DNA of 64,000 bases from Lutibacter sp. (GTDB taxonomy: Bacteria; Bacteroidota; Bacteroidia; Flavobacteriales; Flavobacteriaceae): positions 1-64,000 of the forward strand of contig JAUXPH010000022.1 in NCBI GenBank assembly GCA_030683995.1, written 5' to 3'. The notes under the pieces were generated by a model. The model saw only the letters and a list, made by a program, of their open reading frames with translations. It ran no database searches and had not been told where the DNA came from. The translations under genes were made by a program, and so were the position numbers. This document shows positions 7,140-63,540 of this stretch, piece by piece (within the stretch, counting starts at the first letter, position 1; each line of letters starts with the position of its first letter).

Positions 7140-7486
7140 TCGCAATTTTCCATTTCAATGATGAAATATCCCTTTTGTTTGATTTCTGTTTCCCATTGTG
7201 GTTTGACACTTTCAATGTGGCAAAACCTACACTCTTTTGATGATAAGGGTTGTCCGTCTTGTCCTTTGTTTTTTAGATAATCTTTGCCATAACCGTAAAT
7301 TATGGTTGTATCTCTAATTTCTTGCGGTGCAATGATGTCGAAGTGCATTATGCTACCGTCTTTTTTGGTTACATAAGTGTCCCAAACTGCTACTTTCATT
7401 TTTGTTTCTTTTTTATTGTTTGATTGAGCCTTGATAGTTGTGCATATCAATAAGGTAAGGGCAATCAATATTGTTATTTGTTTCAT
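7136..7486 (-). CDS. DUF2024 family protein with an N-terminal signal peptide
   Basis: The protein is 116 residues. Residues 30-116 match the DUF2024 family (MKVAVWDTYVTKKDG, HFDIIAP, SSKECRFCHIE, GYFIIEMENC). The function of the family is unknown. Here an export signal precedes it: MKQITILIALTLLICTTIKAQ, then a short lysine-rich linker. The internal methionine at residue 30 is where I would expect an ordinary family member to start. The ATG at 7486 is favoured because an upstream alternative would overlap the promoter at 7508-7515. It is the first gene of the DUF2024-GGCT-MarR-YggS operon. Confidence 0.75.
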   Translation of the reverse strand: MKQITILIALTLLICTTIKAQSNNKKETKMKVAVWDTYVTKKDGSIMHFDIIAPQEIRDTTIIYGYGKDYLKNKGQDGQPLSSKECRFCHIESVKPQWETEIKQKGYFIIEMENCE

Positions 7487-26387: not shown

Positions 26388-26525
26388 CGGTGGGCGTTAC
26401 CCGCCGGCTGGCGGGTCGGGCTTTTCGTTACAATCCGTCATTGCGAGCGGAGCGTGGCAATCTGTTGAACATATTGCTGAATAAACTCGCAATGCCGGGA
26501 TTTTCACTTTAATCCCTAACGCAAA
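26388..26525. repeat. REP-like intergenic element, copy 2
   Basis: It begins GGTGGGCGTTACCCGCCGGCTGGCGGGTCGGGCTTTTCGTTA in type, with the CCCGCC/GGCGGG hairpin, and ends AATCCCTAACGCAAA at 26511-26525. The inside carries CGTCATTGCGAGCGGAGCGTGGCAATC-type sequence, a word seen in many intergenic repeats of this phylum. The rest of the gap up to 26740 holds nothing I recognise. Confidence 0.6.
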
Positions 26526-26738
26526 TACTGTTGTAAATAGAACTTAGCCTTATATTATTAATTAAAATTGAGGAAGCTGTTTGGTTGCGTTGGTCGCTAA
26601 AGAAGTAAATAATTACTGCTTTAGCATTTTTTAACGAGGTTGCAATCAGTTCAAATTTTTCCTCCTGAAATTCAGTCAGCAAATTTAGGAAAACTAAAAA
26701 TTATAACATGCAAAAAATGATTTTTATTTAAAAAAAAC

Positions 26739-26768
26739 TTGCACGTTAAAAAAATGTGATTACATTTG
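26739..26768 (+). promoter_or_regulatory. promoter of the metY leader
   Basis: A -33 TTG (26739-26741) is followed after 19 nt by a perfect -7 box TACATTTG (26761-26768). Transcription would start about 5 nt on, some 15 nt ahead of the first leader ORF. Confidence 0.7.
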
Positions 26769-26788
26769 TGGCATCAAAAAAACAAAAA

Positions 26789-26857
26789 ATGACCATAAAA
26801 TTGAACAATATGATGTGTATGATGTGTAAAATTTACGCGGAGTGCTCTATTGTTTAA
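26789..26857 (+). CDS. Met/Cys-rich leader peptide 1 of metY
   Basis: This short ORF encodes 22 residues from ATG to TAA and has MMCMMC at residues 8-13 plus a third cysteine at 19, so seven of 22 codons are Met (including the start) or Cys after the first few residues. It lies about 15 nt after the predicted transcription start and is followed 24 nt later by an intrinsic terminator. In the gap between stall site and terminator, 26838-26846 can pair with the left arm of the terminator. This is the classical layout of a leader-peptide attenuator sensing charged tRNA-Met and tRNA-Cys. The reading is inferred from sequence alone. Confidence 0.75.
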   Translation: MTIKLNNMMCMMCKIYAECSIV

Positions 26858-26881
26858 AATTCAATAATATATAAAACAATT

Positions 26882-26912
26882 AAAAGCCTCTGAATTTTCA
26901 GAGGCTTTTTTT
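26882..26912 (+). terminator. terminator of metY attenuator 1
   Basis: A 12-bp perfect stem, AAAAGCCTCTGA pairing with TCAGAGGCTTTT around an ATTT loop, is followed by a run of T. It is a strong intrinsic terminator lying upstream of its target gene. A competing pairing of CGGAG-t-GCT (26838-26846) with AGCCTCTG (26885-26892) gives an 8-bp antiterminator with one bulged base. Confidence 0.85.
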
Positions 26913-26927
26913 ATAACCAACACCAAA

Positions 26928-27020
26928 ATGAACTTAAAATTCCAATTTTCGAAATCTGTAATTTGTTGTATGCAAATGCAAATGATGCAAATCATCATGA
27001 AAAGATATTGCCTAAACTGA
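26928..27020 (+). CDS. Met/Cys-rich leader peptide 2 of metY
   Basis: This is a second leader ORF of 30 residues, starting 15 nt after terminator 1. Residues 13-20 read CCMQMQMM, with a further Met at 24 and Cys at 28. The stop is TGA at 27018-27020, and a second terminator starts 26 nt later. The two leaders do not look like a recent duplication, since their sequences differ apart from Met/Cys enrichment and layout. A second attenuator in series would tighten control of metY by Met and Cys supply. I did not find a convincing antiterminator here by eye. Confidence 0.72.
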   Translation: MNLKFQFSKSVICCMQMQMMQIIMKRYCLN

Positions 27021-27046
27021 TTGGAATAAAAAAATCTATAACGATT

Positions 27047-27087
27047 AAAGTCCCTTTGGTAATATCTAAATCCAAAGGGACTTTTTT
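27047..27087 (+). terminator. terminator of metY attenuator 2
   Basis: AAAGTCCCTTTGG (27047-27059) pairs perfectly with CCAAAGGGACTTT (27072-27084) around a 12-nt loop, followed by T residues. It lies 40 nt before the metY start codon. Confidence 0.85.
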
Positions 27088-27126
27088 ATTTCAAAAACTA
27101 ATATAAAAATATTAAAACATAAAAAA

Positions 27127-28410
27127 ATGAGCACACAAAAATTTTCAACACAAGCATTGCACGCAGGACACGACATTACCAAAAATGGAGGAACCAGAGC
27201 CGTTCCAATTTACCAAACCACTTCATATGTTTTTCACAATTCGGAACATGCCGCCAATCTTTTTGGACTTGCCGAAGCAGGTTTTATCTACACACGTTTA
27301 AACAATCCGACCAACGATATTTTGGAGCAACGCCTTGCAGCGCTTGAAGGCGGCATTGGCGCTGTGGTTACAGCATCGGGAACGGCTGCAATTGCAACGG
27401 CATTATTGGTTTTGCTGAAAGCTGGCGACCATATTGTGGCTTCGAACAGTTTATATGGCGGCACGTATAATTTATTTAGCGTGACCTTGCCAAGACTGGG
27501 AATCACCACCACTTTTGTGGATCCTTCAAATCCCGAAAATTTCACCAAAGCAACCCAAGCAAACACCCGGGTTTTCTTTGCGGAAAGTTTGGGAAATCCT
27601 AAATTGGATATCTTGGATTTGAAAGCGATTTCTGCGGAAGCCAAAGCCAATAAAGTGCCTTTTATTGTCGATAATACTGTCGCTACGCCTTATTTGCTGA
27701 ACCCAATTGCGCACGGGGCTAATATTGTGATTCACTCGTTGACCAAATACATTTCAGGAAACGGAACATCTCTTGGCGGCGCAATTGTAGATGCCGGAAA
27801 CTTTGACTGGACCAGCGGAAAATTCTCTGAATTTACCGAACCTTCTGCCGGTTATCATGGATTGGTGTATCACGAAGCCTTGGGAAATGCCGCTTTTATT
27901 GCCAAAGTTCGTATTGAAGGTTTGCGCGATTACGGCGCGGCTTTGAGTCCGTTTAATGCTTTCCAGATAATTCAGGGATTGGAAACCTTGCCGATCCGTA
28001 TTAAAAAACACAGTGAAAATGCTTTGGCGTTGGCCGAATGGCTGGAAAATCAGCAGGAAGTTTCCTGGGTGAATTATCCCGGATTGAAATCGAGCAAATA
28101 CTATGATTTAGGTCAGAAATATTTGCCGGAAGGACAAAGCGGCGTGGTGACTTTTGGCTTGAAGGGCGGATTTGAAGCAGCCAAAACCGTGGCCGACGAA
28201 ACCAAATTATTCTCGCTTTTGGCCAATATCGGCGACACCAAATCATTGATCATCCATCCGGCAAGCACCACGCACCAACAATTGTCTGATAAAGAACAAG
28301 TGGCAACCGGCGTTTCAAAAGATTTAATCCGACTTTCAGTGGGGATTGAAGATATCGAAGATTTAAAAGCCGATTTAAAAGCGGTATTTAAAAACCTTAA
28401 AACAGCATAA
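27127..28410 (+). CDS. metY: O-acetylhomoserine sulfhydrylase (MetY)
   Basis: The protein is 427 residues, a PLP enzyme of the Cys/Met metabolism family that makes homocysteine from O-acetylhomoserine and sulfide. Typical MetY features are the start FSTQALHAGHD, the YTRLNNPTND motif, ASGTAAIATALL, and the cofactor lysine in IHSLTKYISGNGTSLGG near residue 209. The 427-residue length and the extra segment around 220-245 separate MetY from the shorter MetB/MetZ type. Two tandem leader attenuators precede it. An OsmC-like gene follows after 2 bp and is probably co-transcribed. Confidence 0.95.
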   Translation: MSTQKFSTQALHAGHDITKNGGTRAVPIYQTTSYVFHNSEHAANLFGLAEAGFIYTRLNNPTNDILEQRLAALEGGIGAVVTASGTAAIATALLVLLKAGDHIVASNSLYGGTYNLFSVTLPRLGITTTFVDPSNPENFTKATQANTRVFFAESLGNPKLDILDLKAISAEAKANKVPFIVDNTVATPYLLNPIAHGANIVIHSLTKYISGNGTSLGGAIVDAGNFDWTSGKFSEFTEPSAGYHGLVYHEALGNAAFIAKVRIEGLRDYGAALSPFNAFQIIQGLETLPIRIKKHSENALALAEWLENQQEVSWVNYPGLKSSKYYDLGQKYLPEGQSGVVTFGLKGGFEAAKTVADETKLFSLLANIGDTKSLIIHPASTTHQQLSDKEQVATGVSKDLIRLSVGIEDIEDLKADLKAVFKNLKTA

Positions 28411-28871: not shown

Positions 28872-28917
28872 TTTGTAAAAAGATGCCTTAAATGAATTAT
28901 GAATTTCGAAATGAAGC

Positions 28918-29042
28918 TGCATTAGGGATTGCAGTGGAAAACCTTTTTTGATTCGCCTTTTTTGGCGAAGTAAAAAAGTTTGCAACGAAAAGCCCGGCCC
29001 GCCAGCTGGCGGGAAATGCCCTCCAAAATGGCGGGCAGGCCC
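28918..29042. repeat. REP-like intergenic element, copy 3 (reverse orientation)
   Basis: It reads TGCATTAGGGATTGCAGTG, CCTTTTTTGATTCGCC, AACGAAAAGCCCGGCCCGCC, then an AGCTGGCGGG hairpin and GCGGGCAGGC. It is the reverse orientation of copies 1, 2 and 5. It lies between the OsmC gene and the metX riboswitch. Confidence 0.65.
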
Positions 29043-29173
29043 AAAATAACAATGAAAGCAAATTTTTTGATTTTTTAAACGAAATGTGGCGATTTGTTAA
29101 ATTAATTAAAAGTATTGTTTAAGAAAAATTTAATGCATTAATTTGCGGTTCAGTTCATAAACGTATTGAAAAG

Positions 29174-29271
29174 TGTTATTAAGAAAGGCAGAGGGATTAG
29201 ACCCGTTGAAGCCTTAGCAACCCTTTGCCCGGCAAAGAAGGTGCTAAATTCTACCAAATTGGATAGATAAC
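29174..29271 (+). ncRNA. SAM-I (S-box) riboswitch aptamer upstream of metX
   Basis: The aptamer core is recognisable: P1 from GTTAT (29174-29178) with ATAAC (29267-29271), the conserved GAGGGATTAGACCC, GTTGAAGCC, TTAGCAACC, a CTTTGCC/GGCAAAG stem and AAGGTGCTAAATTC. Binding of SAM should switch off the metX-thrA-metZ transcript. Just downstream, GCCTTTCTTAA (29299-29309) is perfectly complementary to TTAAGAAAGGC (29178-29188) inside the aptamer, so the two could form a competing 11-bp helix. There is no clear U-tract terminator, so the level of control is not evident. Confidence 0.88.
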
Positions 29272-29370
29272 AAACCGAAATTACTGCTCGTAAATTTTGC
29301 CTTTCTTAAATAATGCTGTCAATAAATGTTGGATCAAAAATTTTGATTTGGCCATTTTAAAATAGTATTG

Positions 29371-34021: not shown

Positions 34022-34133
34022 ACCGAAGACCGAAGTCAAGGAGAGTGAGTAAGTCATTATGATTTATCAACAAGGGGATAAATCCCCTTGGCGCGATTTT
34101 GAAATAATTTTTAATACTCATAATTAATTGAAT

Positions 34134-34254
34134 TCGCGTTAGGGGTTGCAGTGTAAAACCTTTTTGATTTGCCTTTTGGCGAAGAAAAAAGTTTGGAACG
34201 AAAAACCCGACCTGCCTACCGGCAGGCAGGCCTGCCAGTTGGCGGGGAACGCCA
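34134..34254. repeat. REP-like intergenic element, copy 4 (reverse orientation)
   Basis: It reads GCGTTAGGGGTTGCAGTGTAAAACC, GATTTGCCTTTTGGCGAAG, GGAACGAAAAACCCGACC, then a TGCCTACCGGCAGGCA-type hairpin and CCAGTTGGCGGGGAACGCC. It is in the same orientation as copy 3. Just before it, AAGGGGATAAATCCCCTT (34073-34090) forms a hairpin also seen at 18679. Confidence 0.65.
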
Positions 34255-34655: not shown

Positions 34656-35269
34656 GAAATTTAGATTTGGAACAGATAAATAAGGAACTGGAAAAGAAAT
34701 CGCCCGAAGAAATTGTAAGCTGGGCATTGTCGATTGCTTCAGAACCTTTGGTTACCACGAATTTCAGGCCGTATGAAGTGGCTATTTTATATGCCTGCAC
34801 CAAAGTTAAAAAGGATTTAAAGGTAATTTGGTGCGATACAGGCTATAATACGCCGCAAACGTATGCGCATGCCAATGAATTAATTGAAAAATTGGGTTTA
34901 AATGTGCATTTGTATGTGCCAAAACAAACTGCGGAACATCGGAATGTGACCATGGGAATTCCGCAAATTGAGGACCCGATGCATCAAATTTTTACGGAAC
35001 AAGTGAAGCTGGAACCTTTTAACAGAGCGATGGCAGAACACAAACCCGATGTTTGGTTTACCAACTTGCGCAAAGGTCAAACGGCTTTCAGGGACAATAT
35101 TGGCATTGTTTCCATAAGTAAAGACGGTGTTTTGAAAGTGAGCCCTTTTTACCATTGGTCGGATGAACAGCTAGACAACTATTTAAGATTGTACCAATTG
35201 CCAAACGAATTCACCTATTTCGATCCAACAAAAGTGTTGGAAAACAGAGAATGCGGTTTGCATTCATAA
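34652..35269 (+). CDS. cysH: phosphoadenylyl-sulfate/adenylyl-sulfate reductase
   Basis: The protein is 205 residues from the ATG at 34652, which overlaps the DUF2061 stop. A further start nine codons upstream would overlap more. It reduces activated sulfate to sulfite, using a catalytic cysteine in the C-terminal ECGLH. Binding motifs are VIWCDTGYNTPQTY and TNLRKGQTAFRDN. It lacks the paired cysteines that hold the [4Fe-4S] cluster of APS reductases, so by that rule it should use PAPS. However, no APS kinase gene is present in the window. It is followed by cysD after 10 bp. Confidence 0.9.
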   Translation: MRNLDLEQINKELEKKSPEEIVSWALSIASEPLVTTNFRPYEVAILYACTKVKKDLKVIWCDTGYNTPQTYAHANELIEKLGLNVHLYVPKQTAEHRNVTMGIPQIEDPMHQIFTEQVKLEPFNRAMAEHKPDVWFTNLRKGQTAFRDNIGIVSISKDGVLKVSPFYHWSDEQLDNYLRLYQLPNEFTYFDPTKVLENRECGLHS

Positions 35270-63257: not shown

Positions 63258-63286
63258 CAGCCAAGTTCATAAACACAGTGACCACA

Positions 63287-63387
63287 GTTATTAAGAAAGG
63301 CAGAGGGATTAGACCCGTTGAAGCCTTAGCAACCCTTTATTTATAAAGAAGGTGCTACATTCTACCAAAATATTTTGGATAGATAAC
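63287..63387 (+). ncRNA. SAM-I (S-box) riboswitch aptamer upstream of metH
   Basis: The aptamer core is nearly the same as that at 29174: P1 GTTAT (63287-63291) with ATAAC (63383-63387), GAGGGATTAGACCC, GTTGAAGCC, TTAGCAACC, a CTTTAT/ATAAAG stem and AAGGTGCTA. It lies about 390 nt before metH. A REP-like element sits in between, so how it controls metH is unclear. The complementary 11-nt segment present after the first riboswitch is not found here. Confidence 0.88.
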
Positions 63388-63438
63388 GAAGAGACTTTTC
63401 CAGAATTCTTCATGCATTTTTTAATAATTTTATTGGGT

Positions 63439-63540
63439 TTGCCCGCCTTTTTGGAGGGCGTTACCCGCCAGCTGGCGGGTCGGGCTTTTCGCTATATCTT
63501 TTTTTCAAAAAGGATATCGCTTCAATGCCTAACGCAAACT
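63439..63540. repeat. REP-like intergenic element, copy 5
   Basis: It reads TGCCCGCCTTTTTGGAGGGCG, TTACCCGCCAGCTGGCGGG, TCGGGCTTTTCGCT, then an ATATC-T7-CAAAAAGGATAT hairpin and TTCAATGCCTAACGCAAA. It is the most complete copy in the window and gives the limits of the element: GCCCGCC at one end and CCTAACGCAAA at the other. Confidence 0.7.

Follow-up and report, generated by a model that had tools for sequence, protein, structure and literature searches.

The trp, his, leu, thr and phe attenuators share a short open reading frame (ORF) enriched in codons for the end product, a terminator, a competing antiterminator, and an early segment that pairs with segment 2, the 5′ strand of the antiterminator. 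Attenuators have been catalogued for his, leu, thr, trp, ilv and phe (accessible part of PMC3766115), and methionine control has been described in terms of SAM or SAH riboswitches, T-boxes and repressors, with classical attenuators catalogued alongside (PMC3766115 and PMC4239095, both accessible only in part). No methionine leader peptide appeared in the available portions of PMC2864571, PMC7366714, PMC6847099, PMC9094748, PMC13236596, PMC4239095 and PMC1273637. In the full-text literature, a scope that leaves out most subscription papers, we found no published methionine leader-peptide attenuator, nor a leader-peptide attenuator before metY.

In Actinobacteria, cysteine leader peptides have been predicted, encoded by short ORFs that contain stretches of Cys codons and precede sulfur genes; no conserved terminator hairpin was reported for them, Rho was suggested, and no RNA structure was predicted upstream of methionine operons (PMC1262725, as far as its available part goes). 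Going by the same partial source, these leaders differ from those described below in having no Met run, in preceding other genes and in belonging to another phylum. The metY leaders also differ from the poly-Cys leaders of mycobacteria in that both ORFs have intrinsic terminators behind them. A 2020 study by Canestrari reportedly deals with the cysteine leader peptides of Actinobacteria. Among Bacteroidetes, the Bacteroid-trp RNA (RF01692) has been listed (PMC2864571, accessible part), and in 2021 strong clues of leader-peptide attenuation before amino-acid biosynthesis operons were reported for F. psychrophilum (PMC9723704). The main text of that article contains no occurrence of methionine; metY may be included in its supplementary Table S7.

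Organisation of the metY locus

We analysed a 64,000-nucleotide stretch of a Lutibacter sp. contig (JAUXPH010000022.1, hereafter the window), in which a methionine and sulfate-assimilation cluster surrounds metY (27127..28410, plus strand; TIGR01326, O-acetylhomoserine sulfhydrylase, 640 bits against a cut-off of 495). The nearest relatives of this copy in the metY tree were from Lutibacter MAGs. On its 3′ side, metY is followed by an OsmC-like gene, a SAM-I riboswitch (29173-29273, Rfam), a MetX-like gene whose best model scores were below its cut-off, a gene for a fused aspartokinase/homoserine dehydrogenase, a second Cys/Met PLP enzyme gene, a CysH-like gene (model score below the cut-off) and the CysD gene. 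A further SAM-I was found at 63285-63389, and the ORF behind it matched MetH models over their first 330 residues; a preliminary description of this DNA had placed SAM-I riboswitches at the neighbouring metX operon and at metH, and both were confirmed. Upstream, metK is divergent from metY, with a minus-strand SAM-II riboswitch in front of it; SAM-II on the minus strand was also observed in 7 of the 19 relatives scanned with Rfam. The elements identified between metK and metY were as follows.

26611-26670, minus strand: SAM-II riboswitch before metK (Rfam match)
26739..26768, plus strand: promoter-like sequence, TTG-19 nt-TACATTTG, read from the letters; promoter function inferred
26789..26857, plus strand: leader ORF 1, 22 codons, MTIKLNNMMCMMCKIYAECSIV, with Met/Cys at codons 8-13 and 19; conserved in relatives
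26801..26810, plus strand: leader 1 segment 1 (TTGAACAATA), with its pairing partner at 26848-26857 (TATTGTTTAA); 10 pairs, shuffle p 0.035
26838..26846, plus strand: leader 1 segment 2 (CGGAGTGCT), antiterminator 5′ strand with one bulged base; from folding and conserved position
26882..26912, plus strand: terminator 1 and U-run, with segment 3 (AGCCTCTG) at 26885-26892; from sequence and conservation
26928..27020, plus strand: leader ORF 2, 30 codons, MNLKFQFSKSVICCMQMQMMQIIMKRYCLN; conserved in relatives
26939..26947, plus strand: leader 2 candidate segment 1 (ATTCCAATT), with its pairing partner at 27019-27027 (GATTGGAAT); shuffle p 0.065
27003..27012, plus strand: leader 2 segment 2 (AGATATTGCC), antiterminator 5′ strand; 10 pairs, shuffle p 0.01, from folding and conservation
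27047..27087, plus strand: terminator 2 and U-run; from sequence and conservation

The box TACATTTG occupies 26761-26768 with a TTG 19 nt on its 5′ side, an arrangement that we take to be the Bacteroidota-type promoter motif. ORF 1 contains seven Met/Cys codons after the start and ORF 2 eight (codons 13-15, 17, 19, 20, 24 and 28). The hairpins of the two terminators (12 and 13 pairs, each with a U-run behind it) begin 24 and 26 nt past the stop codons of ORF 1 and ORF 2, respectively; segment 3 of leader 2 (GGTAATATCT, 27058-27067) forms the top of the 5′ arm and the loop of terminator 2. Both parts of the earlier claim, namely two Met/Cys-rich short ORFs of 22 and 30 residues and an intrinsic terminator within 30 nt of each, were thus borne out.

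None of the leader families in Rfam matched the window above its cut-off. When region 26560-27130 was searched permissively, all matches apart from SAM-II stayed below their gathering score; a Phe_leader match over leader 1 (32.4 bits, gathering score 55) was rejected, and no T-box was present among the 38 matches up to E 5. Between the promoter and metY, no SAM aptamer was detected on the metY strand, the only one nearby being the SAM-II on the opposite strand before metK. The Bacteroid-trp RNA, presumably a trp attenuator, had no match in the window and none in the own genome at E 0.001.

Specificity of the leader ORFs

When the 370 nt upstream of metY were shuffled 2000 times with dinucleotides preserved, two such ORFs never arose and one arose in 0.6% of cases; across the whole window, only two further short ORFs (7302-7376 and 34902-34949) passed a similar filter. 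We then considered the window together with the closest 80 metY loci (the best 80 of at least 522 confirmed; 81 loci in all), using as cluster rule at least five Met/Cys within 10 codons. In this set of the window plus the best 80 of at least 522, at least one clustered ORF was found in 36 out of the 81 loci and two in 26 (0.1% and 0 in shuffles, respectively), and on the opposite strand 3 of the 81 passed an earlier ORF rule.

In the own genome, ORF 1 was the only exact match to the Met/Cys codon pattern, with 14 more matches carrying two or three mismatches. No Met/Cys leaders were present before its seven cysteine-synthase-like genes (PALP loci and flanks), nor was there a second strong match to the covariance model of leader 1 or leader 2, so the device looks metY-specific in this genome. 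In 40 relatives, no genome had a second match to the leader 1 model at E ≤1e-4 (only about 90 candidates scored per genome). Some of the weaker top matches of this model were leaders (L165 and L168); the others were set aside, two as resembling ordinary terminators by eye (L166 and L167) and five as having no Met/Cys ORF at the filter used (L169-L173).

Conservation of the competing pairings

Each leader had an anatomy of the trp type: a late segment of the ORF can pair with the 5′ side of the terminator (2:3), and an early segment with the end of the ORF (1:2). Unlike in classical attenuators, segment 2 lies inside the ORF, Met and Cys are mixed in one leader, and two leaders stand in series. 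The alignment of leader 1 comprised 30 of 37 candidates (L001, L005, L008, L016, L020, L087 and L115 excluded), and that of leader 2 comprised 31 of 42, without other-family leaders and without near-copies or poor fits (L001, L006, L011, L015, L020, L034, L079, L082, L086 and L087); 1:2 pairing in leader 2 was counted in 27 Flavobacterium-type leaders, window excluded.

In the terminators (3:4), 96.3% of the cells were paired in leader 1 (n = 30) and 97.1% in leader 2 (n = 31), with 6 and 8 pairs, respectively, changed on both sides. The antiterminators (2:3), which were absent from the preliminary description, exist and are conserved: 90.0% and 84.0% of cells were paired in leaders 1 and 2, versus at most 61.8% and 56.9% with slid partners. 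Changes on both sides were few (three pairs per leader, in 3 and 5 cells, respectively), and complementarity was kept among the variants GCAGAGG/CCTCTGC, GCAGCG/CGCTGC, AGCGGG/CCCGCT and GTAAAGG/CCTTTGC in leader 1, and TTACCAAAAG/CTTTTGGTAA, AGATATTGCC/GGTAATATCT and GCTATTACCA/TGGTAATAGC in leader 2. The early-to-late pairing (1:2) reached 74.0% and 82.5% versus at most 50.7% and 55.8% with slid partners, with 19 and 26 cells changed on both sides against 7.6 and 10.9 in shuffles (e.g. GTAATAGCAAA/TTTGCTATTAC in L012 and GTAACAGGA/TCCTGTTAC in L007); counted by pairs, leader 1 showed no excess (4 versus 3.6 in shuffles). Taken singly, a shuffle p < 0.05 was reached by 49% of the antiterminator helices (n = 83) and by 28% of the early-to-late ones (n = 81).

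Since the segments were picked on the same sequences, the paired fractions lean towards structure. As far as alignments alone can tell, conservation strongly backs the predicted terminators and moderately backs the other pairings. Individual exceptions were a terminator 2 without a U-run (L078) and a leader 2 without an antiterminator helix (L087). In the window, the leader 1 antiterminator needs a bulge and is not the best contiguous helix; that helix, AAATTTA/TGAATTT, was set aside as lying outside the conserved segment.

Position of the Met/Cys codons and proposed mechanism

The 30 leader 1s contained 114 Met and 69 Cys among 712 codons, and 30 leader 2s (L056 dropped) contained 165 Met and 114 Cys among 872; Cys codons were present in 29 of the former and in all 30 of the latter, and every leader had at least two Met after the start. 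In leader 1, the Met/Cys share was 0.83, 0.77 and 0.56 at 24-29, 18-23 and 12-17 nt before segment 2, and 0.05 and 0.02 at 6-11 and 0-5 nt, respectively. The cluster was further upstream in leader 2 (0.72 at 18-23 nt and 0.13 at 12-17 nt), with Cys codons at the edge (0.47 at 0-5 nt), and this ruler was less sharp than in leader 1. Under an assumed footprint length, a ribosome holding the final codon of the run in its A site would extend approximately to the start of segment 2.

For leader 1 of the window, folding with a ribosome on M11/M12, before segment 4, predicted an antiterminator hairpin of -11.8 kcal/mol, which weakened to -1.7 with the ribosome on C19; for a ribosome at the stop codon, a terminator fold of -17.5 was obtained. 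The leader 2 antiterminator had -14.8 when the ribosome sat on M19 or M20, and was lost when it sat on M24 or C28. A ribosome at the stop codon abolished the antiterminator in all 61 leaders folded. At least one Met or Cys codon at which a stall frees segment 2 was found in 30 out of 30 leader 1s and 31 out of 31 leader 2s, a count that we do not take as proof because it is partly built in by codon choice. The terminator is the more stable equilibrium fold in the window, from which we infer that the switch must be kinetic. Without a ribosome, 16 of 30 leader 1s and 21 of 31 leader 2s were predicted to form 2:3, so untranslated leaders may behave differently from trp.

We consider it very probable that metY is preceded by two trp-type, ribosome-mediated transcription attenuators in series, sensing Met-tRNA and Cys-tRNA; translation, termination and the response itself are inferred. 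A ribosome would translate each leader ORF close behind the RNA polymerase. With Met-tRNA or Cys-tRNA in short supply, it would stall in the Met/Cys run, its front edge just before segment 2; stalling on uncharged tRNA is likewise an inference, as are the kinetics by which free segment 2 would pair with segment 3 (the 5′ side or loop of the terminator) ahead of the synthesis of segment 4 and so allow read-through. With both tRNAs ample, the ribosome would reach the stop codon and mask segment 2, and the 3:4 terminator would stop transcription. In the absence of translation, pairing of the early ORF segment with the ORF end could favour termination in some leaders. Stalls at Met and at Cys would have the same effect, and each leader is therefore expected to signal a shortage of either, although a role for both amino acids, like regulation in the cell, is deduced and not observed. 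Transcription would reach metY only after passing both terminators, their read-through multiplying, and the response should therefore steepen.

The RNA anatomy is silent on what stalls the ribosome, and the same RNA switch could be operated by arrest of the nascent chain, the Met/Cys-rich peptide itself stalling the ribosome according to redox state, metal state or a ligand; peptides rich in Met and Cys could bind metals. A conserved arrest sequence would be expected in that case, whereas leaders differ widely in how Met and Cys are ordered and spaced, and it is the number of these residues and their distance to segment 2 that are kept. Moreover, the leaders stand in a setting of sulfur amino acid synthesis and are replaced elsewhere by a SAM riboswitch. 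We regard peptide arrest as improbable and retain attenuation by charged-tRNA supply.

Distribution of leaders and SAM riboswitches among near relatives

For 19 of the 80 relatives' loci, Rfam scans complemented typing by the ORF rule and by sequence motif. Three states were observed among the 81 loci (window plus the best 80 of at least 522): 38 loci with Met/Cys leaders, 36 with SAM-I, and 7 with SAM-II and metK before metY. With the tests used, and Rfam limited to 19 of the 80, no locus of the 81 paired two device types on the metY strand, and none of the 36 SAM-I loci had a Met/Cys cluster ORF before metY (both for the best 80 of at least 522). SAM-I was called by sequence motif in 32 loci (L043 among them confirmed by Rfam) and by Rfam in four (L030, L041, L061 and L076). 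SAM-II was located upstream on the same strand as metY in L052, L054, L058, L062, L069, L071 and L072; metK sits between SAM-II and metY in L058 and L071, by eye, and the other five show the same metK end. In a quick metY tree, the three states needed three changes, and well-supported branches forced at least two changes for the leader and at least two for SAM-I.

Doubled leaders were present in 31 of the 38 leader loci (best 80 of at least 522), 27 by the main rule and four (L001, L002, L005 and L056) with a longer stretch and a looser rule. Among loci with a single leader, L004, L006, L022 and L032 keep leader 2 and L063 keeps leader 1; in L025, one leader was visible and the locus is cut by the contig end. 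Flavobacterium aquatile is one of the carriers of the tandem leader, and one of the two leaders was present in an F. johnsoniae strain. In F. psychrophilum (L003), the species of PMC9723704, leader 2 is present and the first leader has decayed, its frame having no stop codon and crossing terminator 1.

The reading frames were kept, and third codon positions varied most (0.276, versus 0.189 and 0.130; 15 leader 1 rows), as would also suit small functional proteins, for example in metal or thiol handling, made from the metY transcript in a ratio fixed by the terminators. The lengths and sequences of the ORFs vary, however, every ORF comes with a terminator and complementary segments of its own, single leaders have been lost in some relatives, and no such ORF precedes metY in the 36 SAM-I loci (best 80 of at least 522). 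We give hardly any weight to this explanation compared with a leader-peptide function.

The preliminary description had set SAM-I riboswitches at neighbouring genes against leaders at metY; the contrast proved sharper, as leader and SAM-I swap between lineages at metY itself. SAM-I and SAM-II, at metY or at metK-metY, occupy the same place and act on the same target gene in relatives, but sense SAM and not translation. Swaps of T-box and leader peptide documented at hisS offer a precedent for such a leader/SAM swap (PMC2965389, available part). The pair of Met/Cys attenuators is well supported, with function being inferred. Attenuators of this kind are known, and what is new is the Met/Cys specificity, the serial doubling and the replacement by SAM riboswitches, a prior supplementary listing being possible. 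If this holds, lineages differ in whether the metY step answers protein-synthesis demand or the methyl-donor pool. A Met/Cys attenuator interchangeable with SAM riboswitches at one gene would be a natural experiment on why charged tRNA is read rather than SAM, and the serial doubling one on what a second attenuator adds.

Several loci had additional features. In the F. johnsoniae group (L004, L005, L006 and L032), leader 2 and metY are separated by a small gene (MKTLNSIA...KSLLFQMYD, about 60 codons), which would thus share the same attenuator. L001 and L002 have about 240-250 more bases between terminator 2 and metY than the window, including, in L001, the promoter-like TAAATTTG. The contig titles of L013 and L016 are Bifidobacterium breve and Candidatus Nitrotoga, yet both carry Flavobacterium-like metY loci with leaders and are probably misbinned MAG contigs.

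Leaders in the own genus and in more distant genomes

In the own genus, covariance-model matches to leaders 1 and 2 were found side by side in 21 out of 25 genomes, with E values up to 1.6e-8 for leader 1 and, for leader 2, up to 1.2e-9 in 20 genomes and 5e-4 in G391. Each of these 21 genomes carried metY shortly behind the leaders, on their contig and strand (G391 and G408 with a partial metY match). Neither a metY match at E 1e-100 nor a strong leader match was obtained from the remaining genomes, G394, G398, G402 and G404; two of the four are 62% and 88% complete, and weak leader 2 matches were observed in G394 and G402 (1e-4 and 8e-4). Absence of conservation in relatives had been named beforehand as a refuting outcome; this outcome was not observed, the leaders being kept in 38 of the 81 loci (window plus the best 80 of at least 522) and in 21 of the 21 own-genus genomes with metY. 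At the level of sequence, the layout of ribosome-mediated attenuation originally read at this locus therefore holds, leaders, terminators and antiterminators all being kept in relatives.

The more distant samples comprise only genomes whose metY match was strong enough to fetch. In other families of Bacteroidia, a Met/Cys-clustered ORF was found in 13 out of 32 metY loci (0.3% in shuffles), a 33rd locus (L111) being left out as having no upstream sequence. Outside Bacteroidia, no such ORF was found in the 15 metY loci, 11 of which had the SAM-I motif. Many of the other-family leaders were dominated by Cys, and only in some did we detect a terminator close to the ORF. Loci of this sort, with a Met/Cys ORF before metY and no terminator detected nearby, leave room for leader translation acting without a hairpin RNA switch, e.g. 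through Rho-dependent termination, as suggested for the cysteine leaders of mycobacteria, or through coupling to metY translation. In the window and its relatives, by contrast, strong, covarying intrinsic terminators with competing segments follow both ORFs, and we find a hairpin-free mode very unlikely there, keeping hairpin-based attenuation as the preferred reading.

Two loci of one family (L126 and L127) again had two ORFs, with GTGTCTGGA/TCCAGACAC between the ORF end and the terminator for the second ORF of L127. In one genome from another family of the same order, the leader 1 model (E 7.4e-8) detected the leader MMFMMRNYYAEVFMVKI, which has Met codons only and a CCTCTG terminator; the gene behind it encodes a protein 50% identical to the MetX-like protein of the window, and this genome had no metY match at E 1e-120. 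We lean, with reservations, towards a general class of Met/Cys attenuators in Bacteroidia that would sense either tRNA, form a steep gate when paired before metY, have been swapped in evolution with SAM-I or with SAM-II at metK-metY, and occur elsewhere in the order as a Met-only form before metX.

Finally, two matches to the Flavo-1 RNA (RF01705) were observed in the window, at 28911-29003 and 34131-34216. They lie next to a palindromic, GC-rich stretch (CCCGCCAGCTGGCGGG-like) that, by eye, recurs near 26390-26450 and 63440-63530, and Flavo-1 may belong to a dispersed repeat.
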